DNA from: a virus
Virus record (IMG/VR): IMGVR_UViG_3300047548_001270
Location: 1-30,499 of that record
Strand: one strand, 5' to 3'
Length of the DNA: 30,499 nucleotides
Part shown: positions 478 to 30,012 of the stretch, in pieces
How the letters are laid out: every line of letters begins with the position of its first letter
Position numbering within the stretch: the first letter of the stretch is position 1
Notes under the pieces: model-generated
What the model was told of the DNA's origin: nothing
Database searches by the model: none
What the model saw: only the letters and a program-made list of their open reading frames with translations
Position numbers and translations under genes: made by a program

Positions 478-1042
478 CTCTTCAAAAGATACTGTTTTTG
501 ACTTACTAATAGATCATGGAATTGATATTAGAGGTAGAATTTTATACTTACAAGGAGAAGTTGATGAAGATATGTATAATAAGTTTGTTAAGCTTCTTAA
601 GTATTTAGATAAAACAACTGGCGATATTGAAATAGTTTTAAATAGTTGTGGTGGATGTGTTACAAGTGGTTTTGCAATGTATGATGCTATAAAAGCATGT
701 AATAATCCAGTTACAATAAAATGTTATGGAGCAGTTATGTCTATAGCTTCTTTAATATTGCAAGCTGCTGATAAAAGAATAATTAGCGAAAACTGTCGTA
801 TGATGATTCATAGAGGTGAAACTGCTCTCGCTGGTGATTTCAATATTGTTAAGAAAGCTATGCAAGAAGAGATGGAACTTGATAGAATGCTTTGTGATGT
901 CTACTTTGATAGAATGACCGATAAGAACCCTGAATATAAAAGAGCTGCATTAGAAAAACTTATGGATACTGATTCATACTTTTCTGCCGAGAAAGCTCTA
1001 GAGCTTGGGCTGATAGATGAGATTGAAGGTGACGAAGCCTAA
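470..1042 (+). CDS. clpP: ClpP-like serine peptidase (copy 1)
   Basis: A 190-residue ClpP-fold protein, close to the mature length of bacterial ClpP. The catalytic triad is visible: S91 in GAVMSIAS, H114 in RMMIH, and D168 in the D-x3-SA context near the C-terminus. The oligomeric core strand RILYLQGEVDEDM is present. ClpP assembles as stacked heptamers and degrades polypeptides fed in by a Clp ATPase. The window also encodes ClpA, ClpS and a second ClpP. This copy is on the plus strand and translationally coupled to the HNH gene. Its 3' end overlaps a convergent micro-protein gene by 83 bases. It could be a host-like ClpP or a procapsid protease relative. The ClpA gene and the typical ClpP N-terminus favour the Clp role. 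Confidence 0.9.
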   Translation: MSSSSKDTVFDLLIDHGIDIRGRILYLQGEVDEDMYNKFVKLLKYLDKTTGDIEIVLNSCGGCVTSGFAMYDAIKACNNPVTIKCYGAVMSIASLILQAADKRIISENCRMMIHRGETALAGDFNIVKKAMQEEMELDRMLCDVYFDRMTDKNPEYKRAALEKLMDTDSYFSAEKALELGLIDEIEGDEA

Positions 1043-1220
1043 TTATAGTATTTGCTATATGTTCCATCGCTTTATTTCTCCACTCGCGAGCTGGATCTTT
1101 GCTATCAGGAAGCCAATCTGAATACTTACTTCCTACTATATTAAATCTACTTAGAGTGTTTGCAAATTTTATTAAATAATTATAATGCTGAGAACCCATA
1201 TTATTCATAAACTGTTCCAT
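960..1220 (-). CDS. TLxRF-family micro-protein
   Basis: Up to 86 residues with core FANTLSRFNIV and a following DW (SDW), as in its two upstream neighbours. ATG codons at 1220, 1208 and 1199 are all possible; 1208 overlaps the upstream stop as TATGAATAA. The family-like part ends near residue 55. The rest of the frame runs antisense into the 3' end of clpP copy 1, so the original stop may have been lost. It is the last of three tandem paralogues. Function is unknown. Confidence 0.6.
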   Translation of the reverse strand: MEQFMNNMGSQHYNYLIKFANTLSRFNIVGSKYSDWLPDSKDPAREWRNKAMEHIANTIIRLRHLQSHLSAQALELSRQKSMNQYP

Positions 1221-1386
1221 ACTTAGCTACAAAATTTCTTACAGCATTATCATATACAGAACCGTGTCTAAATCCCCAATCATTAATATGAGAACTTACA
1301 ATATTAAATTTATATAGTGTATATACAAAACTCGCATATACTGATCGACTACTTACTATGATCAACAATAACCTCATATTTAGCAT
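1201..1386 (-). CDS. TLxRF-family micro-protein
   Basis: A 61-residue protein (58 if the ATG at 1377 is used) with core FVYTLYKFNIV. A DW dipeptide follows at the same distance as in the proteins on either side. It starts inside the upstream paralogue (38-base overlap) and ends inside the downstream one. No strong ribosome binding site is seen, so translational coupling is likely. Function is unknown. It belongs to a repeated family in this window and is the middle copy of a tandem array. Confidence 0.65.
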   Translation of the reverse strand: MLNMRLLLIIVSSRSVYASFVYTLYKFNIVSSHINDWGFRHGSVYDNAVRNFVAKYGTVYE

Positions 1387-1525
1387 AATTATCTACAAAA
1401 TCACATATTCTTTCATCAAAATAAGAACCAAGTTTCCAGTCAGAATCTTTAGTATTAGTTATATGTAGTCTAATTAATGTTTCCATAAAATTATAGACAC
1501 ATATTCTAGCTGAGGTTGCTCTCAT
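1349..1525 (-). CDS. TLxRF-family micro-protein
   Basis: A 58-residue protein read by hand from the sequence between the transglycosylase and the next micro-protein. Its ATG overlaps the transglycosylase stop codon (ATGA). The core is FMETLIRLHIT, and a DW dipeptide sits eight residues after it. The second half (SYFDERICDFVDNYAKYE) aligns with the next copy (SVYDNAVRNFVAKYG). It is the first of three tandem paralogues. No known domain is recognised. Confidence 0.65.
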   Translation of the reverse strand: MRATSARICVYNFMETLIRLHITNTKDSDWKLGSYFDERICDFVDNYAKYEVIVDHSK

Positions 1526-2070
1526 TTACTTGCCAATGTTTGCATAACTTTATTGATCTTTAATTGATAAATAGCATTGAATTCTGGAGTATTAGAATGA
1601 TATCTTGCATACCACTTAGGATCTCTAGGGCTTCTAGACTTAATGATGTTTAAGATTTTACACATTTTACCAATAGCATATTCATCTGATGATACAAGTT
1701 TAGCCTTATCAATCTTGCTTAAACCAAGTCTAACAAACTCTTTATTCCAAATTTTTAAGTTAATTTGTACAATAGAATAATCACCAGTTGGAGAAACTGC
1801 GTTAGATTTAAAGTTACTCTCAATCTTTATAATTGAGAGTAAAACTTTCTTTGGTATGTTGTATCTTATTGACATAGTATCTATTGCTGCAGCCACTTTC
1901 ATTTGTCTCTCTTCTGAAAGATGTGGGGCGAGCTTCGACACTTTCTTTTTAACTTCTATGATTCTTTCGTTAACTACTTTCTTCTCGGCATCAAAACTAT
2001 AATCTGTCTGAGTAACAATTGGAAGAACTAATAAAGCTGCGACTAGCGCTATCTTTAGCTTGTTCACCAT
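1522..2070 (-). CDS. Secreted lytic transglycosylase (SLT domain)
   Basis: A 182-residue protein. A signal peptide (residues 1-20, K-rich start then AALLVLPIV) precedes a soluble lysozyme-like transglycosylase domain. The catalytic glutamate is E84 in KIESNFKSNAVSP, and GDYSIVQIN matches the GLMQ-type substrate-cleft motif. It would cleave peptidoglycan glycan strands in the periplasm, for lysis or entry. The ATG is preceded by GGGAGG. It follows the AAA ATPase gene by 15 bases and overlaps the micro-protein downstream (ATGA). No holin is recognised beside it. An export signal instead of a holin would resemble signal-endolysins, but that is inference. Confidence 0.82.
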   Translation of the reverse strand: MVNKLKIALVAALLVLPIVTQTDYSFDAEKKVVNERIIEVKKKVSKLAPHLSEERQMKVAAAIDTMSIRYNIPKKVLLSIIKIESNFKSNAVSPTGDYSIVQINLKIWNKEFVRLGLSKIDKAKLVSSDEYAIGKMCKILNIIKSRSPRDPKWYARYHSNTPEFNAIYQLKINKVMQTLASK

Positions 2071-2085
2071 GTAAACCTCCCGGTT

Positions 2086-3093
2086 CTATTTCGCTCCTAG
2101 ACCAAGACCCATTTTATTAGTCTTGTTCTTTTCAAAGCGTTTACTAACTAAGGTCTTATGGTTGACCATTTTGTCAACTACATCTGCATAAGTTTGACCT
2201 TTCAAAATACTTCTTTTAACAACTTCAGCTAAGTGAGCAGGTGAAAAGTCTTTCGCCAACTTCAAAGCTTCTTTTTCTTCTACTGTACATGGTCTTTTAG
2301 AAATAAACTCAACTAGCTCAATTCTTTGTGCCTCTGTTGGTGGGTCTAATTCTATGTATTCATCGAATCGGCCAGGGCGATCAGCTAGAGCATCTAAGAG
2401 TGATCCTGGGTGATTTGTAGTAGCGATGATGAATGTTGGGATGGAAAAGGTATTATCAACACCATCTAGCAGGTTTAATAAGCTAGAATCGATACCTCTT
2501 TCTCTACCATTGTAATCTTCCTGTTCTCCGCCACCGATATCTTCGATAACTAGAACAAGGCGAGTACAGCCTTCTTTCTTGTAGTCAATACTTGCAAGGA
2601 ATCTGTTCGCATCTGAGCTTCTTATCTCAGAAGTTGGCCAGTTGATTGCAATAGTATTCTTATCTTCTTTAATTAAGTTCTCAATAGTTCTTGTAATAGC
2701 CGAAGTCTTCCCATATCCTGGAGGAGAATAGAGTAGGATTGCTCTCTTTTCTTCAACTTCAAGCTCTCTGTATTTCTCTAAGTGCTTAAAAAAGTTATCG
2801 GCTTCATTTAAGATCTTACTTGTATTGTCGTAAGATGTAAGGAGATTCTTATTCCTAAGCTCTAGATCACCAAGAATAATCTTAGAACCTTTTGTAGTGA
2901 TATTGTAAACACCAGGTTTAGCAATCACTTTGTCTTCATTTTTCTTTTCAGGTTCAACATATTTAAACTGAACGATCTTTGTGTCGTTCTTAACTAAGAG
3001 ATCAGACTCTTGAATTTCAGAGTCAACAGCAAGGTCTTCAATGTTAGTAACTTTAGTAACTACGAATTTACCTTCTTTAACTTCTTTACTCAT
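2086..3093 (-). CDS. AAA ATPase, classical clade (Vps4/Bcs1/SpoVK-like)
   Basis: A 335-residue protein. An unrecognised N-terminal region (about 1-110) precedes a single AAA module. Walker A is SPPGYGKT (about 123-130), Walker B VIED (182-185), sensor ATTN and arginine-finger region DRPGRF (238-243). The C-terminal helical lid ends in a small tail, MGLGLGAK. Classical AAA proteins remodel or unfold protein complexes as hexamers. The ATG at 3093 has GAGGG at the right distance and overlaps the upstream stop by 8 bases, so it is preferred over 3120. It is the third gene of a tightly overlapping operon with two unknown charged proteins, which may be substrates or adaptors. The exact family is uncertain. 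Confidence 0.82.
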   Translation of the reverse strand: MSKEVKEGKFVVTKVTNIEDLAVDSEIQESDLLVKNDTKIVQFKYVEPEKKNEDKVIAKPGVYNITTKGSKIILGDLELRNKNLLTSYDNTSKILNEADNFFKHLEKYRELEVEEKRAILLYSPPGYGKTSAITRTIENLIKEDKNTIAINWPTSEIRSSDANRFLASIDYKKEGCTRLVLVIEDIGGGEQEDYNGRERGIDSSLLNLLDGVDNTFSIPTFIIATTNHPGSLLDALADRPGRFDEYIELDPPTEAQRIELVEFISKRPCTVEEKEALKLAKDFSPAHLAEVVKRSILKGQTYADVVDKMVNHKTLVSKRFEKNKTNKMGLGLGAK

Positions 3094-3430
3094 TATCACC
3101 CTCGTCGTATGCGTGTCCAAATATTTCTTGAAAACTTTTCATTATTTGTCTGCTACTTTTACTTCTTCGTCTACCCTTGTTCACTAGGTCTTCTTCCATG
3201 GAAACAAGAGATACTTCTTCGTTAGCTTCATATTGCCTCTTACAAGTTCCGAAGTTAATACTAAGGTCATCATGTAGGTGGTGATCTGCCATAACATCTA
3301 CAGAAGTCACTCTACTTATGCTTTTATTAACACCATCTTTCCAACCTAGATCCTCAGATTCATCTATATCAACTACATCTGAATTGTAGACATGAAAATC
3401 AGGGTCTTGTCTAAGTTTAGTTCTTGGCAT
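3086..3430 (-). CDS. Hypothetical charged protein of the AAA operon
   Basis: About 114 residues and mixed charge: a basic start (MPRTKLRQ), an acidic early part (DVVDIDESED), a central His/Asp patch, and a basic stretch KGRRRSKSSR before the end. No domain is recognised and low structure is expected. The ATG at 3430 is preceded by GGGG nine bases upstream, which fits better than the TTG at 3442. It overlaps both neighbours and so is probably co-translated with the AAA ATPase. A role as an ATPase partner is inferred only from context. Confidence 0.65.
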   Translation of the reverse strand: MPRTKLRQDPDFHVYNSDVVDIDESEDLGWKDGVNKSISRVTSVDVMADHHLHDDLSINFGTCKRQYEANEEVSLVSMEEDLVNKGRRRSKSSRQIMKSFQEIFGHAYDEGDNE

Positions 3431-3752: not shown

Positions 3753-3765
3753 AATCTTTTTATAT

Positions 3766-4451: not shown

Positions 4452-4739
4452 TTAATGCCCGTAAGTGAATTCCTTTTTCTCACGCTCAGTAACACAAGTG
4501 ATTTTAATTTGCTCTAATGGCAATATAGACCACTCATAATCTAATAGAATTAGAGTTTCCATGTCTACTCCCTTCTTAAAGGAAAAGTATAGGAATTCTG
4601 ATTTCTCTTGATCTCTAGTTGGACCTTCAGCTTCAGTTCGTGTAATGATCTTTTGCTCAATCAACCACATACAAATATCTGAATAAACATCGTTTATTTT
4701 AAGAAGTCTAGCAATGCAATCAATTCTTCTATTGTTCAT
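4452..4739 (-). CDS. Hypothetical protein
   Basis: A 95-residue protein with no recognised domain. The N-terminal half looks helical (RIDCIARLLKINDVYSDICMWLIEQ) and the C-terminal half is more strand-like. The ATG lies inside the last codons of the upstream micro-protein (TATGAACAATAG), so translation is probably coupled. It closes the ligase/micro-protein transcript. It lacks the TLxRF core, although the N-terminal half has a similar helical size. Confidence 0.6.
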   Translation of the reverse strand: MNNRRIDCIARLLKINDVYSDICMWLIEQKIITRTEAEGPTRDQEKSEFLYFSFKKGVDMETLILLDYEWSILPLEQIKITCVTEREKKEFTYGH

Positions 4740-4887
4740 AATACCTTTCTACTTGTAGTTTTCTTGGAAGCTTAAATACATAAGTCATTTTACAAATGTT
4801 AAATCTCCATAGAGTGTCCATGAAGCAAGCTACAGCCTCGCGCTGATTTACATTATTATATTGTCGTATGTAAGTTAGATTGTTCAT
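4729..4887 (-). CDS. TLxRF-family micro-protein
   Basis: A 52-residue protein read by hand in a stretch otherwise left empty. The ATG overlaps the upstream stop (ATGA). The core is FMDTLWRFNIC. The C-terminus is basic (KLPRKLQVERYYEQ). It is the fourth of four consecutive family members behind the DNA ligase. Function is unknown. Confidence 0.62.
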   Translation of the reverse strand: MNNLTYIRQYNNVNQREAVACFMDTLWRFNICKMTYVFKLPRKLQVERYYEQ

Positions 4888-5054
4888 TCTAAATCTCTAT
4901 AGGTTACATATACGTAATCACCATGCTCATTCTGACCTCTGCCTGTTCTGCAGTCAACTATCTTAAATCTAAAAATAGTATTCATCATTTCTATGAAAGC
5001 GTCGGCTTGTCTCCAACCTCTTACTCTCATCTGAAAGCTATTAATGCGGATCAT
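4884..5054 (-). CDS. TLxRF-family micro-protein
   Basis: A 56-residue protein with core MMNTIFRFKIV and a polar C-terminus. The ATG at 5054 has AAGGA at good spacing and overlaps the end of the upstream paralogue, so it is preferred over an upstream start at 5093. It is the third copy of the tandem array behind the DNA ligase. Function is unknown. Confidence 0.65.
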   Translation of the reverse strand: MIRINSFQMRVRGWRQADAFIEMMNTIFRFKIVDCRTGRGQNEHGDYVYVTYRDLE

Positions 5055-5232
5055 GAAATTCCTTTTCCCACTTAGCTGCAGCTTCTGGACCATCTATTAA
5101 AAGAACATGAAGCCTACATGCCCACCAATATCTAACAACTCTATTTACTAAACCAAACCTACAAAGAGTATATGCAAAATCATCACATATCTCAAAGCCT
5201 TTTTCTGTTCTTAGATAAGGATCAACTCTCAT
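5041..5232 (-). CDS. TLxRF-family micro-protein
   Basis: A 63-residue protein with core FAYTLCRFGLV. An aromatic pair (YWW) follows the core and the C-terminus is mixed-charge. The ATG overlaps the stop region of the preceding paralogue by 11 bases. It is the second copy in the tandem array. No domain is recognised. Confidence 0.65.
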   Translation of the reverse strand: MRVDPYLRTEKGFEICDDFAYTLCRFGLVNRVVRYWWACRLHVLLIDGPEAAAKWEKEFHDPH

Positions 5233-5392
5233 GTTTGTGATACTCCCTCATTTTGCAAGCAAGTGAAACATAAAAAGTACCATAATCTTGTTTAATAAGA
5301 CTAAATCTTATTAAAGTTCTATATAGATCAGCACAAACTTGATCTGAAAGTTGAACTCCATGATAGCATTGTTTCATTACACTAAGCTTCAT
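5222..5392 (-). CDS. TLxRF-family micro-protein
   Basis: A 56-residue protein found by reading the sequence after the DNA ligase. Its ATG overlaps the ligase stop codon (ATGA). The core is LYRTLIRFSLI. It is the first of four tandem paralogues, each overlapping the next. The arrangement predicts coupled translation from the ligase mRNA. Function is unknown. Confidence 0.65.
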   Translation of the reverse strand: MKLSVMKQCYHGVQLSDQVCADLYRTLIRFSLIKQDYGTFYVSLACKMREYHKHES

Positions 5393-6621
5393 TTGTCATC
5401 TCTAAACCGCATAAAGATAGGAAATCTCATGATTCCATCTGGTGTTAACTCTTGATACTTAGTTTCAATCTTTCTGCCTAAGAACTCAGCTTGATTATTC
5501 CACATGTAATCTCTATCTGCATCACTAAATCCAGAACCACAATCACATGCATTACCATTCTCTTGCTTCAAAACGAGGCCGCCCATCCTTCCCTCATGCT
5601 TCGTTCCAGCCTTACCCTCATAAAATCCAACAATCTCACAATCTTGTGAAACCATAGTTTTGAATTTCATAAGCGAATTCGCATTCCTACCTTTATAGTA
5701 AGGAATATCTGGAAGAACCATTACACCCTCGAATCCCAACCCAATGTAAGCAACTTCAAGGTCTTTTATCTCTTGTAAAGTTGTTACAAACTTCTGATCA
5801 ACAGGAACAATTACGTCTTTCTCGAAAAATATCTTAAGACCTGCCATCAGATTCATTCTTTCGCTTTTCTTCATTATAAACTTACCAGACTTCCACTCAC
5901 TTAGAGTTAGACAGTCAAATACGTTATATCTAACATCTCCAACTGTAGTGCCTCGCTTACTAGCGAATGCACTCTTCTGCATAGATTGAAAGTCATCTGA
6001 CATGATTTCACCATCTAGCACGCAACTCTTACCTACAAACGTATTTGCAAGTGACGCTGCTATGCTTGGGAAATTGGTAAATATAGAACCGTTTCTAGAA
6101 TAGAGAGTAACTTCTCCCTGATCAATTACAGCTAAACATCTATATCCATCAAACTTAGGTGAAGTATAAACGCCTGCTTTAATGATACTATCTAGTTTCT
6201 TACACTTCTTTCCATCAGTTGCAAGCATAACATCGAACGTAGGAATATTAAAGAACTTGGCTGCAGTTTCATCTGAAACTCCAATCTTCAAATCTTTCCT
6301 TAAGACCTTTGCATACCAATCCTGTTGATTATCAGAACATCTATTAAAGAAGTCTTCAACAAGAGCTTTAGCTGCGTGGCCTGTAATTTCTCTATTTTCT
6401 AATCTTTGGAGTAGAGACATGAACTCATCATGTAAGTCAACTTCTGTTGAGGCTTGTGATGATATGTCAAACTTATGAATATGGAATTTTCTAAAGAAGT
6501 TAAGTGAAGCATCTAATAGCTCACCTAATCTTTTATTTCCACTTGACTCCTCTAAAATGCTTCTTTTCTCGTTTTTCCCAGAGGCTCTTGAAACTCTCTG
6601 GAGTACGTCTAGTTCTATCAT
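5389..6621 (-). CDS. ATP-dependent DNA ligase
   Basis: A 410-residue ligase. An N-terminal helical region (1-150) is followed by the nucleotidyltransferase core. Motif I is KFDGYR (lysine adenylation site, about residue 154), then YSRNG, LDGE, FDCL, EGVMV and LMKFK. A C-terminal OB fold begins near DCEIVGFYEG. It seals nicks using ATP in phage replication and recombination. Length and order match viral ATP ligases of the T4/T7 type. It overlaps a micro-protein gene upstream and another downstream. Family assignment is firm; it is too diverged for a symbol. Confidence 0.93.
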   Translation of the reverse strand: MIELDVLQRVSRASGKNEKRSILEESSGNKRLGELLDASLNFFRKFHIHKFDISSQASTEVDLHDEFMSLLQRLENREITGHAAKALVEDFFNRCSDNQQDWYAKVLRKDLKIGVSDETAAKFFNIPTFDVMLATDGKKCKKLDSIIKAGVYTSPKFDGYRCLAVIDQGEVTLYSRNGSIFTNFPSIAASLANTFVGKSCVLDGEIMSDDFQSMQKSAFASKRGTTVGDVRYNVFDCLTLSEWKSGKFIMKKSERMNLMAGLKIFFEKDVIVPVDQKFVTTLQEIKDLEVAYIGLGFEGVMVLPDIPYYKGRNANSLMKFKTMVSQDCEIVGFYEGKAGTKHEGRMGGLVLKQENGNACDCGSGFSDADRDYMWNNQAEFLGRKIETKYQELTPDGIMRFPIFMRFRDDK

Positions 6622-6736
6622 TCCAATACTTCTCCAATTCTATACTAAAATCTACATAATTGTCTTCGTTTAATATACCCATGAATAAAAGAGTAACCAC
6701 AAAATGATCAACAACATCGCCCACGTTTCTGTGCAT
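6533..6736 (-). CDS. TLxRF-family micro-protein (diverged)
   Basis: About 67 residues from the ATG at 6736; a TTG at 6787 is an alternative. The core FVVTLLFMGIL keeps the T-L pair and hydrophobic spacing but lacks the arginine. The C-terminal 26 residues are very basic and overlap the ligase start in another frame by 89 bases. Family membership rests on core and context and is weaker than for most copies. Confidence 0.5.
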   Translation of the reverse strand: MHRNVGDVVDHFVVTLLFMGILNEDNYVDFSIELEKYWNDRTRRTPESFKSLWEKREKKHFRGVKWK

Positions 6737-6764
6737 TCTTAATATTTGAGGTAATGACTGAACA

Positions 6765-7547
6765 TTATTTAACACTAAACAGTCCAAGTGTTGGTGCCAT
6801 CATAGATAGTTCACCTTGAATTCTAGAGTTAATTCCAACTACTTCACCATCGCTATTGATAACTGGTCCACCGGACATACCAGGAACAATCATAGATTCT
6901 CCTGTGTAATAAACTCCATATTGACCTATTGCTCTAAAGTCAATACATGTCGCTGGAGACATTCCATTTGCAAAGCCACAGCTTCTTAACATATCGCCAG
7001 ATTTAACTGTAAAATCAGTTCTAACTATCAACTTATTAAACTTCCTAAAATCACCATAAATAAATCCAAAATCTCTACTCGAGTCAGCATCTGCTGCCAT
7101 AGCTACAACTGCAGTATCATTACCATATACATCAAAAACTCTATACATAGTAGGTCTTTCTGTTTTTTGAAGTAATTCTAAGTATTTATTTTTAGCTATA
7201 ACTAATTTAGTTAATTCACCAATTTCTTCATCGCACGTATCTTTATAACATTGAATTTTTAAATTCTCAATATCTGCCTTAATATCTTCAATTTCTTTTG
7301 GAAGTTTTTCAATTGCTTTTGCCATATCTTCTTTAAGAAACTTAGCTGAGAACTGCATACAATGTGCTGCTGTTACTGCAATTTGATCTGATATTACAAA
7401 TGCTGAACAAGAACTTGTGGGTGTTCTTTTAATATTGATTATAGCATTATATTGACCATTGGTAGCTGGCTTGATATCATAATTATTAGTTGAAGAGCAG
7501 CTTGCCATCATCATCAGGAGAAGTAGGGATAAAAGAACTCGTTTCAT
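6765..7547 (-). CDS. Trypsin-like serine protease lipoprotein
   Basis: A 260-residue protein. The start is a lipoprotein signal peptide (MKRVLLSLLLLMMMAS-C17), then a trypsin/HtrA-like domain. Visible triad: H62 in TAAHC, D159 in SSRDFGF and S225 in GMSGGP, followed by VVGIN. A charged, probably coiled-coil insertion (about 66-128) separates His and Asp. The mature enzyme would be anchored in the inner or outer membrane facing the periplasm or outside. The ATG at 7547 has GGAG at the right distance and puts the signal at the N-terminus, so it is preferred over 7619. An exported protease is rare in a phage; it could act on envelope proteins or in superinfection exclusion (inference). Confidence 0.85.
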   Translation of the reverse strand: MKRVLLSLLLLMMMASCSSTNNYDIKPATNGQYNAIINIKRTPTSSCSAFVISDQIAVTAAHCMQFSAKFLKEDMAKAIEKLPKEIEDIKADIENLKIQCYKDTCDEEIGELTKLVIAKNKYLELLQKTERPTMYRVFDVYGNDTAVVAMAADADSSRDFGFIYGDFRKFNKLIVRTDFTVKSGDMLRSCGFANGMSPATCIDFRAIGQYGVYYTGESMIVPGMSGGPVINSDGEVVGINSRIQGELSMMAPTLGLFSVK

Positions 7548-7767
7548 ATTTGAACTCCATTTCAGCTTCACGCAAGACAATGTTTTTAGCTCTAATGAGC
7601 ACTTCCTGCTGCGTTTCATTATTATCTGGACTAGAATACATTATCTCTAAGCAAGACAATATATCTCTAGTTTTAAGATCTTTCTTCTTAAGACTGTTAA
7701 TAACATCATAAGCCCTTGAATTCTCATATCTTACTTGCTTATCAATATATTTCTGTAATCCTAACAT
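7486..7767 (-). CDS. Hypothetical protein upstream of the protease
   Basis: A 93-residue helical, charged protein with no recognised domain. The ATG follows AAGGAT. A -10-like TTATAAAT lies just upstream in a divergent promoter region shared with the sigma-like gene. Its last 62 bases overlap the protease start in another frame, and its C-terminus there (TSPDDDGKLLFN) is probably unconstrained. It is the first gene of the protease/ligase transcript. Confidence 0.6.
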   Translation of the reverse strand: MLGLQKYIDKQVRYENSRAYDVINSLKKKDLKTRDILSCLEIMYSSPDNNETQQEVLIRAKNIVLREAEMEFKYETSSFIPTSPDDDGKLLFN

Positions 7768-8595: not shown

Positions 8596-9294
8596 TTATT
8601 TCTTCTTTGATTTCTTCTTCGATTCGGTTTTCTTTTTAACTGGCTTCTTTGTAGCTTTAACTAAGTCATTTAATAGACCTTTAGCAATCGCCATTGATCC
8701 AGTTTTATCTTCAATCACAATAGGCTTCTTTGAAGGAAGAACTTCTACTGAATAAGATACGGATGGTCTAACCAATGGGAGACCAATAAAATCAATCAAG
8801 CCAATATTCTTAGCTTGTTGAGCGGTAAGATATAAATCTCTACCTTCGTTTTCTTTAATAATTGCTTTTAATTGTTCATACGACATACCACATCTTGCTG
8901 CGATAAGGTCCATGATCTGACGATTAATACGCTCATGTTCTTTAGCGTCTGTCTTAATATCATCTGCATGTCCTACAGCTCCACCAGAAGCCTCATGAAT
9001 CATAATACGAGCATCTGAGTCACAGAATCTAATATCACCTAAGGAAAGAAGTGCTGCACCTGCAGACATAGCTTTACCTTGACATACAGTGATAAATGTA
9101 TTAGGAACGCTTTTCATAATTGAAAGCATTGTGTTAAAGCTATCTACATATCCACCGTATGAATCAATAGTAACTACTATTGGCATACTAGGATCAACAG
9201 ATGCGAGTCTATTTACTTTCTTTCTAAAATCTTTGACAGATTCTTCTGTAAACTTATTAACGACTATCTCATGGTCTTCGAGTTCTTCTCTCAT
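8596..9294 (-). CDS. clpP: ClpP-like serine peptidase (copy 2)
   Basis: A 232-residue ClpP-fold protein. Triad: S77 in GKAMSAGAA, H100 in RIMIH and D153 in GRDLYLTA. The substrate-cleft segment DSYGGYV is conserved. After the fold (about residue 172) comes a 60-residue extension ending in a very basic tail (TESKKKSKKK). The N-terminus is short, with no obvious axial-loop region, unlike copy 1. It may form a mixed ring with copy 1 or be an independent peptidase; both carry full triads. The ATG follows AGGAG. A structured leader precedes it, and copy b of the repeated element lies within its 3' end. Confidence 0.88.
   Translation of the reverse strand: MREELEDHEIVVNKFTEESVKDFRKKVNRLASVDPSMPIVVTIDSYGGYVDSFNTMLSIMKSVPNTFITVCQGKAMSAGAALLSLGDIRFCDSDARIMIHEASGGAVGHADDIKTDAKEHERINRQIMDLIAARCGMSYEQLKAIIKENEGRDLYLTAQQAKNIGLIDFIGLPLVRPSVSYSVEVLPSKKPIVIEDKTGSMAIAKGLLNDLVKATKKPVKKKTESKKKSKKK
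8618..8629 (-). promoter_or_regulatory. Repeated element AACCGAATCGAA (copy b)
   Basis: This copy lies inside the C-terminal Lys-rich codons of clpP copy 2 (reading K-T-E-S-K) and ends 33 bases before the next minus-strand start at 8584. Its presence within coding sequence suggests selection for the DNA element and not only for the protein. The promoter role is inferred. Confidence 0.5.
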
Positions 9295-9388: not shown

Positions 9389-9631
9389 TTACTTTTTTAC
9401 GTATTTATTAATTCTTTTTCTTGCATCTCGTGCCATCCAGTAATTTGTGCATGGAACCCAAACACATGGTGATATATTTTCCATTTTAAGCGGTTCAGTC
9501 CATATTTTAAGTAACTTTAATGTAACTAAAAATCTACCTAATATTTGAGCAGATTCATTGTGTCTATTGGGGTCACTACGGTTTTGTGTATCTATTTTAG
9601 TTAATAATGAAGATTGTACCCACTCTTTCAT
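9389..9631 (-). CDS. TLxRF-family micro-protein (paired paralogue)
   Basis: An 80-residue protein with core FLVTLKLLKIW. Similarity to the upstream protein is not limited to the core: both begin M-[KR]-x-W-x2-SSL and share L-x-[MV]-[ED]-x-[IL]-x-P-x-[VL]-W after it. The ATG at 9631 follows AGGA and overlaps the upstream stop. The C-terminus is basic (ARDARKRINKYVKK). Function is unknown; this is a clear local duplication. Confidence 0.68.
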   Translation of the reverse strand: MKEWVQSSLLTKIDTQNRSDPNRHNESAQILGRFLVTLKLLKIWTEPLKMENISPCVWVPCTNYWMARDARKRINKYVKK

Positions 9632-9861
9632 AACCAATTTCCTATATCAATAGGTCTATTATAGAGTCTGCTATTATAAGCATTGTATGTATATTCCCAT
9701 AATCTAGGTCCAAGTTCATCAACTTCTAAAGTTTTAAAACCTATTTCAAATAAACGTAAAGTAACTATAAAATTAGCTAAAGCTAAAGTCTTATGACTAG
9801 ACGTATCTTCATGCCATTTTGGGAGATTCATTATCAAGGAGGATTCCGTCCACTTTCTCAT
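9628..9861 (-). CDS. TLxRF-family micro-protein (paired paralogue)
   Basis: A 77-residue protein with core FIVTLRLFEIG, the duplicate of the protein at 9389-9631. The ATG follows AAGGAGG (reading on the minus strand before 9861), a strong ribosome binding site, and lies 53 bases inside the upstream gene. No domain is recognised. Confidence 0.65.
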   Translation of the reverse strand: MRKWTESSLIMNLPKWHEDTSSHKTLALANFIVTLRLFEIGFKTLEVDELGPRLWEYTYNAYNSRLYNRPIDIGNWL

Positions 9862-12569: not shown

Positions 12570-12974
12570 TTATTTTTGAAACAATATCCACTTAATCCCA
12601 ACACCATTCTCATTGGGGAATCTATTGATGTTAGTATAGACACAATCTAAGCAATGACCACTTCGGTGCTTTGCATAGAGAATAAAGCTCTTATTAAGAT
12701 GAATATTAAGAATAGGTTCAAGCTCTACATACCTGAATTGTTTTTCATCTATCTTAGAATTAACTGTAGTATCTAAATCTACAAATTTTAAGATTTGATA
12801 GTTAAAGTGTAGTCCTAGTTCACCCTTCTTCTTTTCTTGATATTCAAAGCTTCTATTTGTGCCTACTGCTTCTTCATATCTAAGGTCTAACTGTTTAAGT
12901 TCAGCGGTATGAGCTGAAGTTAGAAGCATCGACACCATTAATGGTAGTAACAACAAACTCTTTATCCTCTGCAT
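12570..12974 (-). CDS. Exported hypothetical protein, possibly outer-membrane
   Basis: A 134-residue protein. Residues 1-23 form a signal peptide ending at SAHTA. The mature part is rich in alternating strands (LDLRYEEAVG, GELGLHFNYQI, RYVELEPILNIHL, SFILYAKH), as in a small beta-barrel or cell-envelope protein, and ends with an aromatic residue two before the end (FQK). Two cysteines are close together (HCLDC). It starts inside the preceding micro-protein. It may alter the host surface (inference). Confidence 0.6.
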   Translation of the reverse strand: MQRIKSLLLLPLMVSMLLTSAHTAELKQLDLRYEEAVGTNRSFEYQEKKKGELGLHFNYQILKFVDLDTTVNSKIDEKQFRYVELEPILNIHLNKSFILYAKHRSGHCLDCVYTNINRFPNENGVGIKWILFQK

Positions 12975-13137
12975 CTCTTATCTCCCTAACTGCTACTTTA
13001 AATAAGTAATTCTCTTCTTTAAAAGCTCCAGCCCATTTTTCTTTAATAATCTTAAATCTCTTTAAGGTTTGACAGAGTCTACCTGAAACCCTTACAGCTT
13101 TAGTATTATTGATCTGTGACGCTTTGTAACCTATCAT
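12901..13137 (-). CDS. TLxRF-family micro-protein
   Basis: A 78-residue protein with core LCQTLKRFKII, then an aromatic KWAGAF and a charged end. The ATG follows AGAGGTAG. Its last 74 bases overlap the signal-peptide codons of the next gene in another frame, so the C-terminal 24 residues are probably unconstrained. Function is unknown. Confidence 0.65.
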   Translation of the reverse strand: MIGYKASQINNTKAVRVSGRLCQTLKRFKIIKEKWAGAFKEENYLFKVAVREIRDAEDKEFVVTTINGVDASNFSSYR

Positions 13138-17505: not shown

Positions 17506-17724
17506 CTATTTGTGCCTTGGCATAAACATTTGAATTTCATCGAGATAATACTTAATTCTTTGTTGCATAGTTATTATTTCTTCAAGAATATCTACTTCTT
17601 TTACTTTTAATTTATCTCTATTCATAAACTCTTCTAAACTATTAAATACAAGTTCATCTTCAAATCTTTCATCCGAACAATTTGGAACTATATGTAATTT
17701 ATTTTTAAAAGTTAATACATTCAT
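17506..17724 (-). CDS. Hypothetical protein
   Basis: A 72-residue acidic protein with a beta-like start (MNVLTFKNKLHIV) and a long helical end (VKEVDILEEIITMQQRIKYYL). The ATG at 17724 follows GGAG. It lies 12 bases downstream of the tRNA on the same strand, so it may share the tRNA transcript. No family is recognised. Confidence 0.6.
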   Translation of the reverse strand: MNVLTFKNKLHIVPNCSDERFEDELVFNSLEEFMNRDKLKVKEVDILEEIITMQQRIKYYLDEIQMFMPRHK

Positions 17725-19341: not shown

Positions 19342-21028
19342 ATTAAAAGCTGAAGGTAATGCCCCACAATGGATGAACGATCCTTCATTCAAGACTCTCT
19401 CTAAAGGATATATGCTTGATGGTGAAACTCCAAAGGATATGTATAGAAGAGTTGCTAAGACAGTGGCGAATAAACTAAACAAACCAGAGATGGAAGATAA
19501 GTTCTTTGATTATATGTGGAAGAACTGGCTTTGTCCTGCTACACCTGTACTTTCTAATTCGGGTACAGATCGTGGACTTGTAATCTCTTGCTTTGGCGAA
19601 ACAGTTCCAGATAGTGTAGATGGTATTTATAAGTCTGTACATGAGATGGCTATGCTATCTAAGTTCGGTGGTGGAGTAGGTGTTGACCTATCTAATATTC
19701 GTGGTCGTGGAGTATTAATTAAAGGTGGAGCAAATGGAGCATCTGAAGGTGTAACTCCATGGGCTAAAGTATTTGACTCTGCAACAATCGCAACCTCACA
19801 AGGTAACGTACGTAGAGGTGCAACGAGTTTGAACTTACGTGTTGACCATGTTGATATAGAAGAATTCTTAAGAATCCGTAGACCATTAGGTGACGTCAAT
19901 AGACAGTGCCTTAATATTCATCAATGTGTTCAAGTTACAGATGCCTTCATGAAAGAAGTAGCAGATGGCAATATGCGCTCTAGAAACATCTGGAAAGAAA
20001 TACTTAAGACTCGCTTAGAAACAGGTGAGCCATATATACAGTTCATTGATAATGTCAATAAAGCTAATCCTCAAATGTATAAGGATAAAGGTCTTGAAGT
20101 TAATATGACTAATATCTGCTCAGAGATTATGTTATTCTCTGATGTTGATCATAGCTTTGTATGCTGTCTTTCTTCTCTCAACCTAACAAGATGGGAAGAA
20201 TGGAAGGACACAGACTTAGTAGAAACTTCTATCTGGTTCTTAGATGGTGTCATGTCTGAATTCATTGATAAAGCTAGAGGTTTGCCTGGATTTGAACGTG
20301 CAGTAAGATTTGCAGAGAAATCTCGTGCATTAGGTTTAGGTGTTCTTGGATGGCATACCCTATTGCAACAGAAACAGCTCCCTTTTGAATCGTTTGCATC
20401 GATGCAACTGAATGCTCTCATCTTTAAGAAGATCAGAGAAAAGGCCGATATTGCAACGAGGGAATTAGCATTAGAATACGGAGAACCTGAATGGTGTGTA
20501 GGATATGGAGTTCGTAACTCTCATCTTCTTGCTGTAGCACCAACTGCATCTAACTCTATCATTAGTGGTGGAGTATCTGCTGGTATTGAACCTATTATGG
20601 CTAATGCTTTTGCACAAAGAACAGCTAAAGGTGTATTCTTAATTAAGAACATTACATTAGAAGAATTATTAGAAACTAAAGGCAAGAACGATGTCGAGAC
20701 ATGGAAGAACATTGTAGCCAACGAAGGAAGTGTTCAACAATTGAATTTCTTATCTGCAGAAGAGAAAGAGATATTCCTTACGGCTTATGAGATCAATCAG
20801 TCTGCAATTATTAGACAAGCATCTCAGAGACAGAAGTATATTGACCAAGGTCAGAGTTTAAATCTATTCTTTCCAGCTGATGCTGATCCAGCGTGGTTTC
20901 ATAAGGTACATAAGGAAGCTCATGAGGGTGGAATTAAAGCTTTATATTATCTTCGTAGTAGTTCAGTTCTTAAAGCTGATAATGCAAGTAGACAAAAAGA
21001 TGAAAGTTGTAAGAGTTGTGAAGGATGA
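19331..21028 (+). CDS. nrdA: Ribonucleotide reductase class I, large subunit (no ATP cone)
   Basis: A 565-residue catalytic subunit, short because the N-terminal ATP-cone is missing. It would lack ATP/dATP activity control. Active-site residues: C87 (ISCFG), N261-x-C263-x-E265 (NICSE), C278/C279, Y539-Y540 for radical transfer, and a C-terminal redox pair C560-x2-C563 (CKSC). The ATG at 19331 has GAGG six bases before it and overlaps nrdB; a longer frame from 19262 is rejected. It reduces ribonucleoside diphosphates with NrdB. Its stop overlaps the GIY-YIG gene (ATGA). Confidence 0.95.
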   Translation: MLNKLKAEGNAPQWMNDPSFKTLSKGYMLDGETPKDMYRRVAKTVANKLNKPEMEDKFFDYMWKNWLCPATPVLSNSGTDRGLVISCFGETVPDSVDGIYKSVHEMAMLSKFGGGVGVDLSNIRGRGVLIKGGANGASEGVTPWAKVFDSATIATSQGNVRRGATSLNLRVDHVDIEEFLRIRRPLGDVNRQCLNIHQCVQVTDAFMKEVADGNMRSRNIWKEILKTRLETGEPYIQFIDNVNKANPQMYKDKGLEVNMTNICSEIMLFSDVDHSFVCCLSSLNLTRWEEWKDTDLVETSIWFLDGVMSEFIDKARGLPGFERAVRFAEKSRALGLGVLGWHTLLQQKQLPFESFASMQLNALIFKKIREKADIATRELALEYGEPEWCVGYGVRNSHLLAVAPTASNSIISGGVSAGIEPIMANAFAQRTAKGVFLIKNITLEELLETKGKNDVETWKNIVANEGSVQQLNFLSAEEKEIFLTAYEINQSAIIRQASQRQKYIDQGQSLNLFFPADADPAWFHKVHKEAHEGGIKALYYLRSSSVLKADNASRQKDESCKSCEG

Positions 21029-21684
21029 TAGTTTACAAAGTTATTAATAAAATTAATAATAAAGTTTATATAGGTCAAACATCTAAAACTTTAGAAAATA
21101 GAATTAAAAGTCATATTAAAGAAGCAAACAATAATTCAAACTTATTATTACATAAAGCGATAAGAAAATATGGCATTGATAATTTTAGTTGGGAGATTAT
21201 TAAACACTGTTCCACAGTGCAAGAATTAAATGATACAGAAATTGCAACAATAAAACTTTATAAATCTATTGAAAATGGTTATAACATAACCAAAGGTGGG
21301 GTTGGAATATTAGGATATAAGCACACGGATAAGACCAAATCTAAAATTAGTAAATTAGGTAAAGGTAGGAAAATATCGGATATTGGCATTAAAAATATGT
21401 CAAATGCTAAAAAGAAACAATGGACAGATATAGAATATAAGGAAAAGCAGGTTAAAGCTGCTAAAAATAGATGGTCTAACAAACAAGAAATAGAAAAACA
21501 ATCAGTTAGAAAAGGTGGTAAGTATTTTATGGTTATTAATGAAAGTAATCAAATAATATGGAAAGGCTTATCTCAAAGACTCTGCTCTAGAGAGCTAAAT
21601 CTAGATTGTGTAGCAATTGGAAGATGTTTAAAGAATATTCAACAAACTCATCGTGGCTTTAGATTTACTTATTGCGAAGCTTAA
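21025..21684 (+). CDS. GIY-YIG endonuclease, free-standing homing type
   Basis: A 219-residue protein. N-terminal GIY-YIG domain (MIVYKVINKINNKVYIGQT, then NRIKSH with the catalytic Arg, and NGYNITKGG). The middle has a NUMOD3-like DNA-binding motif (GYKHTDKTKSKISKLGKGR), and the C-terminus is a basic region of the kind that reads DNA. Such SegA-like nucleases spread copies of themselves into related phages, and nrd genes are classic neighbours. It overlaps the nrdA stop and is clearly more AT-rich than nrdA. Its last 20 bases overlap a convergent micro-protein gene. Confidence 0.9.
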   Translation: MIVYKVINKINNKVYIGQTSKTLENRIKSHIKEANNNSNLLLHKAIRKYGIDNFSWEIIKHCSTVQELNDTEIATIKLYKSIENGYNITKGGVGILGYKHTDKTKSKISKLGKGRKISDIGIKNMSNAKKKQWTDIEYKEKQVKAAKNRWSNKQEIEKQSVRKGGKYFMVINESNQIIWKGLSQRLCSRELNLDCVAIGRCLKNIQQTHRGFRFTYCEA

Positions 21685-21835
21685 TAGCATATTGAAGACA
21701 AAATCTATGAGTGAATAACCTCACGGGTGGACCATCGTTCCATTCATAGATTTTAAGTTTAATTATAGTAGCTCTAAGCTCTCTAAAGACAGCACGAGAT
21801 TCTTCTGTTTCTGAAAAGAAAATTGCATGTTTCAT
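21665..21835 (-). CDS. TLxRF-family micro-protein (diverged)
   Basis: A 56-residue protein with core LRATIIKLKIY, keeping the T-I pair and spacing but with Lys for Arg. The ATG at 21835 overlaps the upstream stop (TAATG) and has AAGGTG before it. Its end overlaps the 3' end of the convergent GIY-YIG gene. Family membership is likely but less certain than for the tandem copies. Confidence 0.55.
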   Translation of the reverse strand: MKHAIFFSETEESRAVFRELRATIIKLKIYEWNDGPPVRLFTHRFCLQYAIKLRNK

Positions 21836-22152
21836 TATTTCACCTTTACTTCTTTCTTTCTTTTGAGAGAACTTCTGTGTCCACATGAATTACATAAATT
21901 TAATGTAAATGTGCCATCTGCTCTTGGAATATCCATTGATGTAAGGTTATCGTTTCCACAAACTTCGCAGATAGGTTTACGAGGTTCGAGACCATCATCT
22001 TTTCTATCTTGCTTTGCTTGTAACCCATCAATCAAGGTTTCTTTCGCTAGTTTTCTAAGCTTCGTTACTTCTTTCTTTAATCTAGAATTCTCATCTTGAA
22101 ACTTCTTAAATCTAACCCAGTCATCTTTCTTCTCTTTCTTGCCTCTAGCCAT
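21835..22152 (-). CDS. Coiled-coil zinc-ribbon protein
   Basis: A 105-residue basic protein. Residues about 1-45 form a coiled coil (RFKKFQDENSRLKKEVTKLRK). Then ICEVCGN and LCNSCGHR give two C-x2-C pairs 22 residues apart, a zinc ribbon with an intervening strand, and a very basic tail follows. Nucleic-acid binding is likely from charge and ribbon (inference). It has its own promoter (-10 at 22189-22194), divergent from the zinc protein at 22271. Confidence 0.68.
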   Translation of the reverse strand: MARGKKEKKDDWVRFKKFQDENSRLKKEVTKLRKLAKETLIDGLQAKQDRKDDGLEPRKPICEVCGNDNLTSMDIPRADGTFTLNLCNSCGHRSSLKRKKEVKVK

Positions 22153-22600: not shown

Positions 22601-23104
22601 TTAAATAATAAGTCCAAGTTCTAGCATGCCTTGCTCGTGTCCAATTTTAGCGACAGCTAGTTTTTCTTCTGTAGTTAACTTAGTAAATGCTTTAACATGA
22701 AATTCTTCATCTGTTTGAATTTTATTAAAGATAGATGCTAGTTCTGTAAATTCCGTATCTTTTGCAATAATTCTAATTCTTTCTAAGCGCATTTCTTCAG
22801 CGTGAGCACCAATTGCAGAAGCTTCTTCTAATGTATCGAAATTCATATTAACTTCTTTCCAATATCTTTCTTCATGTTCTGTAATAGGTTCAATATTATT
22901 CTTTACTAAATAATCTTTAATCCATTCATAGTGTTTAAGTTCTTGATCTGCAACTATTCTTAAGATTGAATTGTTATATTTGGTTGCTAATTTTCCAATT
23001 CTAAGATACGCTTGATATTCACCATAACATTGTTTTTGTAACCATGAGTTCATTTTTAAATTATCGTTCTTTACTTCATTCCACCATTCTAAACCAGTTT
23101 TCAT
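22601..23104 (-). CDS. Ferritin-like di-iron protein (rubrerythrin-like)
   Basis: A 167-residue all-helical protein. Likely metal ligands are E29 (CYGEYQAY), E55-x2-H58 (ADQELKHYEW), E103 or E104 (GAHAEEMRLERI) and E133-x2-H136 (TDEEFHVKAF). This is the four-helix E, E-x2-H, E, E-x2-H pattern of ferritin-like di-iron proteins. It lacks the rubredoxin domain of rubrerythrin. Possible roles are peroxide or oxygen handling, or hydroxylation as in MiaE; neither is shown. The ATG follows AGGGAG. Unusual in a phage. Confidence 0.75.
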   Translation of the reverse strand: MKTGLEWWNEVKNDNLKMNSWLQKQCYGEYQAYLRIGKLATKYNNSILRIVADQELKHYEWIKDYLVKNNIEPITEHEERYWKEVNMNFDTLEEASAIGAHAEEMRLERIRIIAKDTEFTELASIFNKIQTDEEFHVKAFTKLTTEEKLAVAKIGHEQGMLELGLII

Positions 23105-24542: not shown

Positions 24543-24777
24543 CGAATTTCGTTGGTTTATCTAATTTTAATGGATACTTTTTCATTAATGGTACAGTGAC
24601 CAATAAAAGAGGTGGAATACAAATACTCACTGCAAACAATATAAGTCTACCTACTTGCATAGTATTTGGGTATATCTTTCTAACTCTTGCTTCTAAGGCA
24701 GAATATTCATGCAATACCTCACATGACTTATGGTCTGTAACCTTAAGAACGTAAGTTTTTCCTACTTCTAGTTTCAT
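24532..24777 (-). CDS. Small membrane-anchored protein
   Basis: An 81-residue protein. A soluble, strand-rich N-terminal part (KTYVLKVTDHKSCEVLHEY) is followed by a hydrophobic segment at about 43-63 (LILFAVSICIPPLLLVTVPL) and a basic end. The ATG overlaps the stop of the preceding micro-protein and follows GGTGG. No family is recognised. Confidence 0.62.
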   Translation of the reverse strand: MKLEVGKTYVLKVTDHKSCEVLHEYSALEARVRKIYPNTMQVGRLILFAVSICIPPLLLVTVPLMKKYPLKLDKPTKFGVK

Positions 24778-24965
24778 TTAATCCACCCATTTTCTATACA
24801 TCTTTCGACATATTCTTTGCACTCAAATAATCCAAAGTATCTTTTTGTATCTAAATTAAAGTTATCTATTTGATCTCTACACTTTATAATGCCAAATCTC
24901 ATTAAAGTATGTCCAAAATTTTTAACGTATAGAACTCTTTTAACTAAACTAAGTGGCTTACTCAA
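24774..24965 (-). CDS. TLxRF-family micro-protein, TTG start
   Basis: A 63-residue protein with core FGHTLMRFGII. A TTG at 24965 (AGAAGG about nine bases upstream) is the only sensible start and lies within the last codons of the upstream gene. Its N-terminus is basic (KPLSLVKRVLYVKN). Function is unknown; a single dispersed copy of the family. Confidence 0.62.
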   Translation of the reverse strand: MSKPLSLVKRVLYVKNFGHTLMRFGIIKCRDQIDNFNLDTKRYFGLFECKEYVERCIENGWIK

Positions 24966-25999: not shown

Positions 26000-26165
26000 T
26001 CTTTACCTTCTTTCTGTCATACTTCGTTTTATCTTTAATAACTTTTGTCGGTCTCGGAAGCATTCTTGGAACTCTTAATGCTAAATACATCGATAGACAA
26101 GTTGTGCACTCATGTTTAGGTTTCCCCTTGCCCTTGTATTTTGGATGCTTCATACATTTTTTCAT
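25986..26165 (-). CDS. Small Cys/His/Lys protein, probable zinc site
   Basis: A 59-residue protein read by hand. CMKHPKYKGKGKPKHECTTCL has the order C-x2-H...C-x2-C of a zinc knuckle, and the rest is very basic. I recall small phage proteins with a similar C-x-H-P-K-Y and C-x2-C arrangement, without known function. The ATG lies inside the upstream micro-protein gene. Confidence 0.6.
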   Translation of the reverse strand: MKKCMKHPKYKGKGKPKHECTTCLSMYLALRVPRMLPRPTKVIKDKTKYDRKKVKNDDY

Positions 26166-26355
26166 GATACTTCCTACTTACATCATCTAATCTTTCAACT
26201 GCGGCTGACCAACCTGAATAAGCTTCTAAAGGTAATTTCCAAACTCTAAATCTACCCAAAGTTCTAAGTAGTTCATCTACTACATAATAGGTTTCCACAT
26301 GAGATTTATTATTATCTAAAATTTCTTTAACTCTTAGGTCTGTCTTTCTCGTCAT
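26116..26355 (-). CDS. TLxRF-family micro-protein
   Basis: About 79 residues with core LLRTLGRFRVW, then a Trp-containing middle (YSGWSAAVERL). AGAAGG is six bases before the ATG at 26355; an ATG at 26361 is less well spaced. The last 50 bases overlap the following small zinc gene, so the C-terminus is probably unconstrained. Function is unknown. Confidence 0.65.
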   Translation of the reverse strand: MTRKTDLRVKEILDNNKSHVETYYVVDELLRTLGRFRVWKLPLEAYSGWSAAVERLDDVSRKYHEKMYEASKIQGQGET

Positions 26356-26482
26356 TGACATCCTTCTTTTTCAACTTTGAAAGCTCATATAATCCCCATA
26401 TTATGAAACCACCAGGAACTATTGCCGCAATAACTAACTTAGCTATTGGCGATTGTCCCAGTTTTTCCAGAGTCTTCTTCAT
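26327..26482 (-). CDS. Small single-helix membrane protein
   Basis: A 51-residue protein read by hand: a basic start (MKKTLEKLGQ), a hydrophobic helix (LVIAAIVPGGFIIWGLY), then a charged tail (LKKKDVNDEKDRPKS). It overlaps the genes on both sides in other frames. AAAGAG lies before the ATG. The topology suggests an inner-membrane protein. Confidence 0.55.
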   Translation of the reverse strand: MKKTLEKLGQSPIAKLVIAAIVPGGFIIWGLYELSKLKKKDVNDEKDRPKS

Positions 26483-26786: not shown

Positions 26787-26798
26787 TGGTGCAGATTC

Positions 26799-28082: not shown

Positions 28083-28089
28083 ATTATTC

Positions 28090-28392: not shown

Positions 28393-28393
28393 A

Positions 28394-28918: not shown

Positions 28919-29226
28919 ATCATCTCCAATTCTAAAGCTTTTTCTAATTGTTCTAATGCCCATTTATCATAGTATCTTTTATAGTGATCAGGTAATGTTC
29001 CGCCCATCTTATCTCTATCTGGCATACCCATATCAATCCACATCTTAAATACTGTCTCTGGAATAGGTTGGGTCATGTATGGGCTAACTGGCATCATACA
29101 ACTTACACCAAACTTTTCATCTATTGCTAAATGATAATGCTTAGTATTGTCTTCTAAATATTCTGCTTCAACCTCATAGTACCAACCTTTATATTTGTAC
29201 ATGTGGCTATATCTGTCATACTTCAT
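28915..29226 (-). CDS. Hypothetical protein
   Basis: A 103-residue protein rich in Tyr, His and Met (MKYDRYSHMYKYKGWYYEV, DHYKRYYDKW), with a helical acidic end. No metal motif is certain. The ATG follows AGGAG and overlaps the stop of the small membrane protein upstream (ATGA). No family is recognised. Confidence 0.62.
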   Translation of the reverse strand: MKYDRYSHMYKYKGWYYEVEAEYLEDNTKHYHLAIDEKFGVSCMMPVSPYMTQPIPETVFKMWIDMGMPDRDKMGGTLPDHYKRYYDKWALEQLEKALELEMI

Positions 29227-29357
29227 AAAACTCCTAAGATTAACCCCGCACTATATACTAATGCAATCTTCTCTAGGATCCAATTGTATAGAGCAACGAA
29301 CTTATACTTATATATGTACCAACATACGAAGAATAGTATTACAATACTACTCAACAT
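29223..29357 (-). CDS. Small membrane protein
   Basis: A 44-residue frame read by hand: a first hydrophobic helix (SSIVILFFVCWYIY), a short K-containing loop, and a second hydrophobic stretch (IALVYSAGLILGVL). The ATG lies 11 bases inside the upstream gene and the stop overlaps the next ATG. GGAT precedes the start. Function is unknown. Confidence 0.52.
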   Translation of the reverse strand: MLSSIVILFFVCWYIYKYKFVALYNWILEKIALVYSAGLILGVL

Positions 29358-29835
29358 AATATAAATCCACAATTCTAAACACCTCTAAGATGTCAGATTC
29401 TTCCATTAGACCAGCGAAATGATCGAATGCAAGTTCTTTATTCTGTAAGATGATTTTCTCTTTAACTTCTCTATCTGTTATATCTACTTCTTTTCCACTT
29501 GTTGTGCGAAGCTTATATCCTTCTTTTGTCTTAGTGATTGTGTCGATTCTGTCCATTAGGAATTCTTGCTCAATTGTTTCAGCAACAGCATCTTGTAATG
29601 AGAGTTCCATGCTCATAATAGTTTCATTATAAACATCTGGTCCAGTGTTAGTGGCATAACCTTCAGAACCTGAATAAGCTTCATTTTCTAGAGTTGAGTG
29701 GATTTCATCCCAAACACCTTGAGCTCCACCATACATCTTTAATAAAACTCTAATGATAAGTTCATCATCACCAGCCATTTGCTTAGTGACTTCTTCATAT
29801 CTATCTAGAATTTCTTTGTAATGGTCTTTACTCAT
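29347..29835 (-). CDS. Hypothetical acidic protein
   Basis: A 162-residue acidic helical protein (KEILDRYEEVTKQMAGDDELIIRV, ELSLQDAVAETIEQEF) with a short beta hairpin near the C-terminus (GYKLRTTSGKEVDI). No family is recognised. The ATG follows AAGAGG, and copy g of the repeated element ends 31 bases upstream. Confidence 0.65.
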   Translation of the reverse strand: MSKDHYKEILDRYEEVTKQMAGDDELIIRVLLKMYGGAQGVWDEIHSTLENEAYSGSEGYATNTGPDVYNETIMSMELSLQDAVAETIEQEFLMDRIDTITKTKEGYKLRTTSGKEVDITDREVKEKIILQNKELAFDHFAGLMEESDILEVFRIVDLYYVE

Positions 29836-29866
29836 ATAACCTCTTGATATTATTTCTCAAGCAGTT

Positions 29867-29878
29867 ATCGATTCGGTT
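29867..29878 (-). promoter_or_regulatory. Repeated element AACCGAATCGAT (copy g)
   Basis: On the minus strand this reads AACCGAATCGATAACT, ending 31 bases before the ATG at 29835. As in copy d it runs into CGATAA, which matches the end of the sigma-28 -10 consensus, and a TTGAGA stretch follows both at a similar distance. Confidence 0.6.
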
Positions 29879-30012
29879 TAATCTTCTTGGCGTTGGCGGT
29901 GGAACATGTCTACGGTGAGTCTATCTATGAGTGTATCTAGTGTGTGAAAGTCTATTATCTTGAAGCGATATAGAGTTCTTAATAAGTGAGCTCTGATTTG
30001 TTCTGGTTCCAT
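29878..30012 (-). CDS. TLxRF-family micro-protein
   Basis: A 44-residue protein, the shortest copy, with core LLRTLYRFKII. The N-terminus is acidic (MEPEQ) and the C-terminus mixed (MFHRQRQED). A -10-like TATAAC lies 7 bases before the ATG at 30012 with no ribosome binding site, so a leaderless mRNA is possible. A much longer upstream frame is rejected. Because it is so short, it is probably close to the minimal family unit. Confidence 0.62.
   Translation of the reverse strand: MEPEQIRAHLLRTLYRFKIIDFHTLDTLIDRLTVDMFHRQRQED

Follow-up and report, generated by a model that had tools for sequence, protein, structure and literature searches.

A family of TLxRF micro-proteins expanded through tandem and dispersed duplication within one lineage of large uncultured phages

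Organization of the locus and of its small genes

The stretch of DNA analysed here (hereafter the window) is the entire 30,499-base virus record IMGVR_UViG_3300047548_001270. Based on its gene content and on the existence of relatives of up to 166 kb, we infer that this 30.5-kb record is part of a larger phage genome. Its genes include those for an ATP-dependent ligase, ThyX and ribonucleotide reductase (the latter two named from reading of the sequence), an AAA protein (2086-3120), a conserved 95-aa protein (4452-4739, minus strand), ClpA (13287-15584), ClpS (15593-15928) and two ClpP-like proteins (470-1042 and 8596-9294). Together, the Clp genes apparently provide the phage with a full ClpAPS protease of its own, which is also present in the related contigs G005, G006, G001 and G002. 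A trypsin-like protease with a lipoprotein-like N-terminus (6765-7619) is kept upstream of the ligase in relatives, and a rubrerythrin-like protein (Pfam PF02915, E 3e-5) is encoded at 22601-23104. Read by eye, 22-477 at the left end of the window resembles an HNH-type homing endonuclease and 21025-21684, beside the reductase genes, one of the GIY-YIG type.

Relatives were located in IMG/VR by means of the core genes. The first 20 kb of the window had no close DNA relative in the phage collection, and the best tblastn matches of the AAA protein were to metagenomic phages of 462-595 kb at ~28% identity. The best genes of L032 and L036/L037 show ~80-88% protein identity to the window, ThyX of L048 shows 85%, and the genes of L038 and G005 ~45-65%; G006, G001, G002 and L053 show ~40-70% identity to the window core genes. 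A near-identical contig (L033) showed no variation in the small genes described below, the sole difference being a 35-bp deletion outside them (17629-17663), near a tRNA-Met gene.

Among the core genes lie sixteen small ORFs that a previous sequence-only reading had grouped by a shared TLxRF core, and all of them are present at the coordinates given there, on the minus strand; they are named here by their lowest coordinate. At the left, 960-1220 (86 aa, ...IKFANTLSRFNIVGSKYSDW) overlaps with its 3' end the convergent ClpP-like gene at 470-1042, and its counterpart in L036 (3565-3924) overlaps a convergent ClpP gene too. Next come 1201-1386 (at most 61 aa, start uncertain; ASFVYTLYKFNIVSSHINDW) and its tandem relative 1349-1525 (58 aa, YNFMETLIRLHITNTKDSDW; z 8.6), which at its start shares 4 nt with the stop of gene 1522-2070. 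A micro-protein slot common to relatives adjoins the 95-aa gene and holds 4729-4887 (52 aa, ACFMDTLWRFNICK), followed by 4884-5093 (56-69 aa, the start probably being at 5054; IEMMNTIFRFKIVD), 5041-5232 (63 aa, DDFAYTLCRFGLVNRVVRYWWA) and 5222-5392 (56 aa, ADLYRTLIRFSLIK), the last overlapping the ligase stop by 4 nt with its start. The best conserved member is 5041, with orthologues in L036 (47%), L032 (44%), L048 and, in a form lacking the T, L005. On the other side of the ligase, 6533-6787 (67 aa from the ATG at 6736; DHFVVTLLFMGILNEDNYVDF) overlaps the ligase start with its 3' end, and the same overlap is found in its orthologue in L032 (16160-16402, 48% identity).

Further along the window, 9389-9637 (80 aa from the ATG at 9631; GRFLVTLKLLKIW) is a tandem duplicate of 9628-9861 (77 aa, ANFIVTLRLFEIG; z 14.2), and is followed by 12901-13137 (78 aa, GRLCQTLKRFKIIK), 15967-16116 (49 aa, LSLLLTLRRFHIIS; 38 aa in its L032 counterpart) and 21665-21886 (56 aa from the ATG at 21835; RELRATIIKLKIYEW), which has an orthologue of 44% identity in L032 (3682-3858). 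The remaining copies are 24774-24965 (63 aa with a TTG start; KNFGHTLMRFGIIKC), 26116-26361 (at most 81 aa, DELLRTLGRFRVWK), with no counterpart at the matching L032 site, and 29878-30012 (44 aa, AHLLRTLYRFKIID), related to 1201 with z 7.8. For 1201, 4884, 6533, 21665 and 26116 the start is uncertain and could be further downstream than that of the longest ORF. The size range of 44-86 aa given earlier holds provided that 29878 starts at 30012, as the longest ORF there has 92 aa. For most copies there is an overlap of 4 to ~50 nt with the stop of the gene before, an arrangement that suggests translational coupling.

Evidence for a single family and its expansion

The pair T-[LI] occurs in 16/16 copies, partly because the copies were selected for it, and Arg/Lys follows three positions after T in 13 of them, the exceptions being 6533, 9389 and 9628 with a hydrophobic residue; both statements of the sequence-only reading were thus borne out. 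A six-frame search of the window with T[LI]x[RK][FL]x[IVL] gave 13 occurrences, all on the minus strand and all in small ORFs, and none on the plus strand; when the residues of these reading frames were shuffled 300 times, the motif appeared 1.5 times on average and never more than 5 times. The codons used differ across copies (ACT/ACA/ACC, CTA/TTA/CTT/TTG and AGA/AGG/CGC/AAA among those at the T, L, R and F positions); therefore conservation lies in the protein, and a DNA-level element was ruled out as the source of the motif.

Profiles built from half of the copies, whose failure had been named beforehand as refuting the family, recovered most of the other half: on average over 30 runs, 4.8 of the 8 held-out copies scored above each of 403 frames of the window and 8,060 shuffled ones, and 6.4 of the 8 outscored all other frames of the window. 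Mean pairwise similarity was z 6.5 between neighbouring copies and 1.76 between non-neighbouring ones (24% above 3), compared with -0.01 (1% above 3) among 22 control small ORFs, which substantiates the proposal that the sixteen copies form one family. In eight aligned pairs third codon positions differed more than second ones (57.7% vs 37.7%) and identical residues shared the same codon in 98 of 176 cases, as expected for coding sequence.

The most telling evidence comes from outside the window, where the search was extended to 44 further loci with a profile of 49 seeds taken from the window and the relatives found first. Matches were confined to the clade, in L038 (6), L048 (7) and L056 (1), with 0.6 decoy matches expected; the profile also re-found L037, a contig carrying seeds, and gave no match in the other 40 loci. 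That the ORFs are short and AT-rich would agree with chance reading frames sharing a motif through composition, an explanation we regard as extremely improbable in view of the strand bias, the shuffles, the recovery of held-out copies, the prediction in unseen loci and the existence of positional orthologues. A chance origin of the motif is excluded by the half-profile recovery, the shuffles and the scan of unseen loci, and these small related ORFs are a real family.

The TLxRF set extends well past the window into related contigs, with proteins of 36-142 aa. A wider profile, seeds included, detected 16 members in the window, 11 in L032, 7 in L037, 10 in L048, 8 in L038 and 16 in G005, and 4 in G006, 2 in G001, 4 in G002 and 1 in L056, with at most 0.4 shuffle matches per contig; as all contigs are fragments these are counts per contig and not per genome, and profiles built on T may miss relatives that lack it. 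In contigs with more than one match all matches lie on one strand, except in G002 (3 and 1). The density is 3-10 per 10 kb in six contigs vs 0-0.7 per 10 kb in other relatives, apart from L056 with one match in 7.4 kb. Family members were absent from the slot loci L110 and L111 and from L096, L097 and L098, contigs that encode relatives of a 175-aa protein of the window and are binned with a Lokiarchaeota, a Cytophagales and a Paceibacterota MAG; the latter three are probably misbinned phage.

The repeated duplication proposed earlier could be specified further, in that local tandem duplication is part of the origin of the set (z 6.5 for neighbours, 1.8 for non-neighbours and 0.0 for controls). 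A single gene of L032 (L032:13418) matches the pair 9389 and 9628, of which L048 has two; 960, 1201 and 1349 together correspond to a single L036 gene, and 21665 to about three genes in L032. Altogether, the comparison shows that tandem and dispersed duplication multiplied the TLxRF family within one lineage of large uncultured phages, where the copies sit among core genes as small, often overlapping genes. Window copies retain only 18-48% identity with their positional counterparts in L032 and L036, several pairs being barely alignable, and the motif is kept, while neighbouring core genes show 34-88% in the same comparison. The family diverges much faster than most neighbouring genes, which may reflect relaxed constraint rather than selection for variety.

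The shared helix and its possible role

The copies have in common ~20 residues with the consensus F..TL.[RK][FL][GN]I and differ greatly outside them, in agreement with the variable flanks noticed at first. In an alignment of 49 members on T, hydrophobic residues occupy -7, -6, -3, +1, +4 and +6 (100% at -3, +1 and +4), T is present at 0 in 42/49 and R/K at +3 in 37/49. Position +5 is frequently G or N, with I/L next to it at +6. As G/N followed by I/L is a classical helix C-cap pattern, the shared element has the pattern of an amphipathic helix with a C-cap. Single copies were modelled with AlphaFold2, as had been proposed, and both models place the motif in a helix with moderate confidence, in different settings: window 5041 was predicted as a three-helix protein (pLDDT 85, pTM 0.47) and L036:493-672 as a beta-alpha-beta-beta fold (pLDDT 77, pTM 0.58).

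A tentative explanation, which we consider possible and which is the best available, is that the family combines a shared docking helix with a variable remainder and is used against the host. The common helix would dock each copy onto one shared partner, which may be a phage protein, a host protein or a common complex, and the variable remainder would engage different targets; the phage could in this way deploy a changing set of small adaptors for host takeover or counter-defence. The docking helix is supported by fast divergence with position and motif kept, by conservation at the protein level, by the portability of the motif, by the two different modelled surroundings of the helix and by a contrast in the T residue described below.

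The helix would be the best-conserved part of such proteins even if it only formed the hydrophobic core of a small fold, and the nearest rival, scarcely less probable, accepts the same family and the same duplications with the motif as nothing but the core around which a small beta-alpha-beta-beta fold is built; the copies would then be independent fast-evolving effectors or near-neutral accessory genes having no partner in common. The mostly hydrophobic core positions, the beta-alpha-beta-beta model of one copy and the hydrophobic pattern kept by T-less positional homologues in relatives are in line with this explanation, whereas the conservation of polar T0 and R/K+3 in paralogues of ~20% overall identity is not. 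Two ORFs of L048 (876-1196 and 1157-1369) argue in the same direction as these polar residues: they have long hydrophobic stretches, by which they are probably membrane-anchored, and carry the motif at their extreme C-terminus (...NLYWTLRRLGIMKGK and ...MRITLHRLNI), leaving no room for the strands. The L032 counterpart of 1157-1369 ends in a diverged form of the motif, and members of 36-38 aa occur in L038 and L032. Based on these C-terminal tails and very short members, an interaction helix is favoured over a fold core.

The slot between the ligase and the 95-aa gene provides a further comparison. In the expanded phages (window, L032, L036, L048, L038 and G005) T is present at 0 in 21/21 small genes of the slot, vs 0/9 in G001, G002, G006 and L053, where the hydrophobic pattern is similar (both by eye); some of the latter genes show a weak pairwise relation to members of the family (z 3.6-5.0). 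This suggests that the slot held an old gene and that the expanded form is derived, T having become fixed. The difference argues that T serves something beyond the fold, although common descent may explain it equally, with T inherited from one founder copy. The 95-aa gene is always beside the slot in the expanded phages and is kept in relatives without the family; its product, with no PHROG match, is only by this adjacency a candidate partner.

The Clp genes of the window point to another conceivable role, in which the copies would act as substrate adaptors of the phage ClpA-ClpS-ClpP protease and feed host proteins to degradation. In favour of this, genes for ClpA, ClpS and two ClpP-like proteins are present, and the ClpS of phages is believed to redirect host ClpAP (PMC7824862). 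Nevertheless, G001, G002, G006 and L053 have ClpA, ClpS and ClpP-like proteins at similar identity without the expansion; the protease genes, being equally present where the family is unexpanded, do not explain it. In addition, the ClpS domain PF02617 was listed for 0/49 members, the real ClpS being the separate gene at 15593-15928, and we hold this role to be very improbable.

Comparison with known families and significance

The assertion that no described family resembles this one stood up to searches of Pfam, PHROG, NCBIfam, PADLOC and PDB. The 49 members gave only scattered weak matches in the first four, each family matching a single member; Foldseek found no significant match in PDB for the models of 5041 and L036:493-672, a PDB sequence search gave nothing convincing, and tblastn with 5041 and L036:493 retrieved no cultured relatives. 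Weak profile matches to a viral caspase regulator and to lysozyme span only a helix and were taken as chance. One slot protein of G006 aligns over 41 residues with the Obg C-terminal domain (TIGR03595, E 0.0012), probably also by chance, as the score is 18.6 bits against a cut-off of 37.65 and concerns one of 49 members.

In its fold, the beta-alpha-beta-beta model bears a weak likeness to adenovirus E4-ORF3 (Foldseek E 0.36-0.78, probability 0.47-0.80), a small viral polymerising adaptor with many targets. This likeness is a lead only, based on fold and not on sequence. It would suit an arrangement in which the helix drives mixed homo- or hetero-oligomers with a patchwork surface, as would the amphipathic heptad-like spacing and the many copies encoded together; the E4-ORF3 match falls short of significance, and such self-assembly seems improbable and, like the Clp adaptors, less likely than independent effectors built on a small fold.

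Small domains are known to have multiplied in single lineages of jumbo phages; the one useful precedent in the literature searched is Bacillus phage G with its zinc ribbon of uncertain function in ~35 copies (PMC7824862). The TLxRF set is similar in that a large phage has many copies of one small domain restricted to one lineage, and differs from those zinc ribbons in its other sequence, shorter proteins and variable flanks; two CxxC pairs were seen by eye in none of the window members. It is a further lineage-specific expansion, unrelated to the zinc ribbon, unnamed and previously undescribed.

Here, a sizeable share of the orphan genes of one lineage, about one per 1-3 kb, turns out to be a single family recognisable by a short helix. 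The small genes of large phages mostly lack an assigned function and are handled as orphans with no relation to one another. Should the helix prove to bind one partner, many orphan genes could be explained at once and it could become apparent how a phage maintains a changing set of host-directed proteins. The docking helix could even be part of a modular arsenal, with dozens of tiny proteins per genome, membrane-anchored ones included, inserting one fixed TLxRF helix into a common hub while their unrelated remainders recruit different host proteins, although we consider this extended form rather unlikely. Even without a shared partner, the family yields a profile for annotation and is a clear-cut example of micro-proteins that expand and diverge very fast.

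L036:493 found no match in the phage collection. Foldseek gave one convincing viral match for its model, the BFVD entry A0A6J5KVY0. This uncharacterised protein of 60 aa, from a Caudovirales phage that is itself uncultured, has a predicted structure only and no description of its function; it shows 54% identity and TM 0.75 to L036:493-672 and is apparently a member of the TLxRF family.
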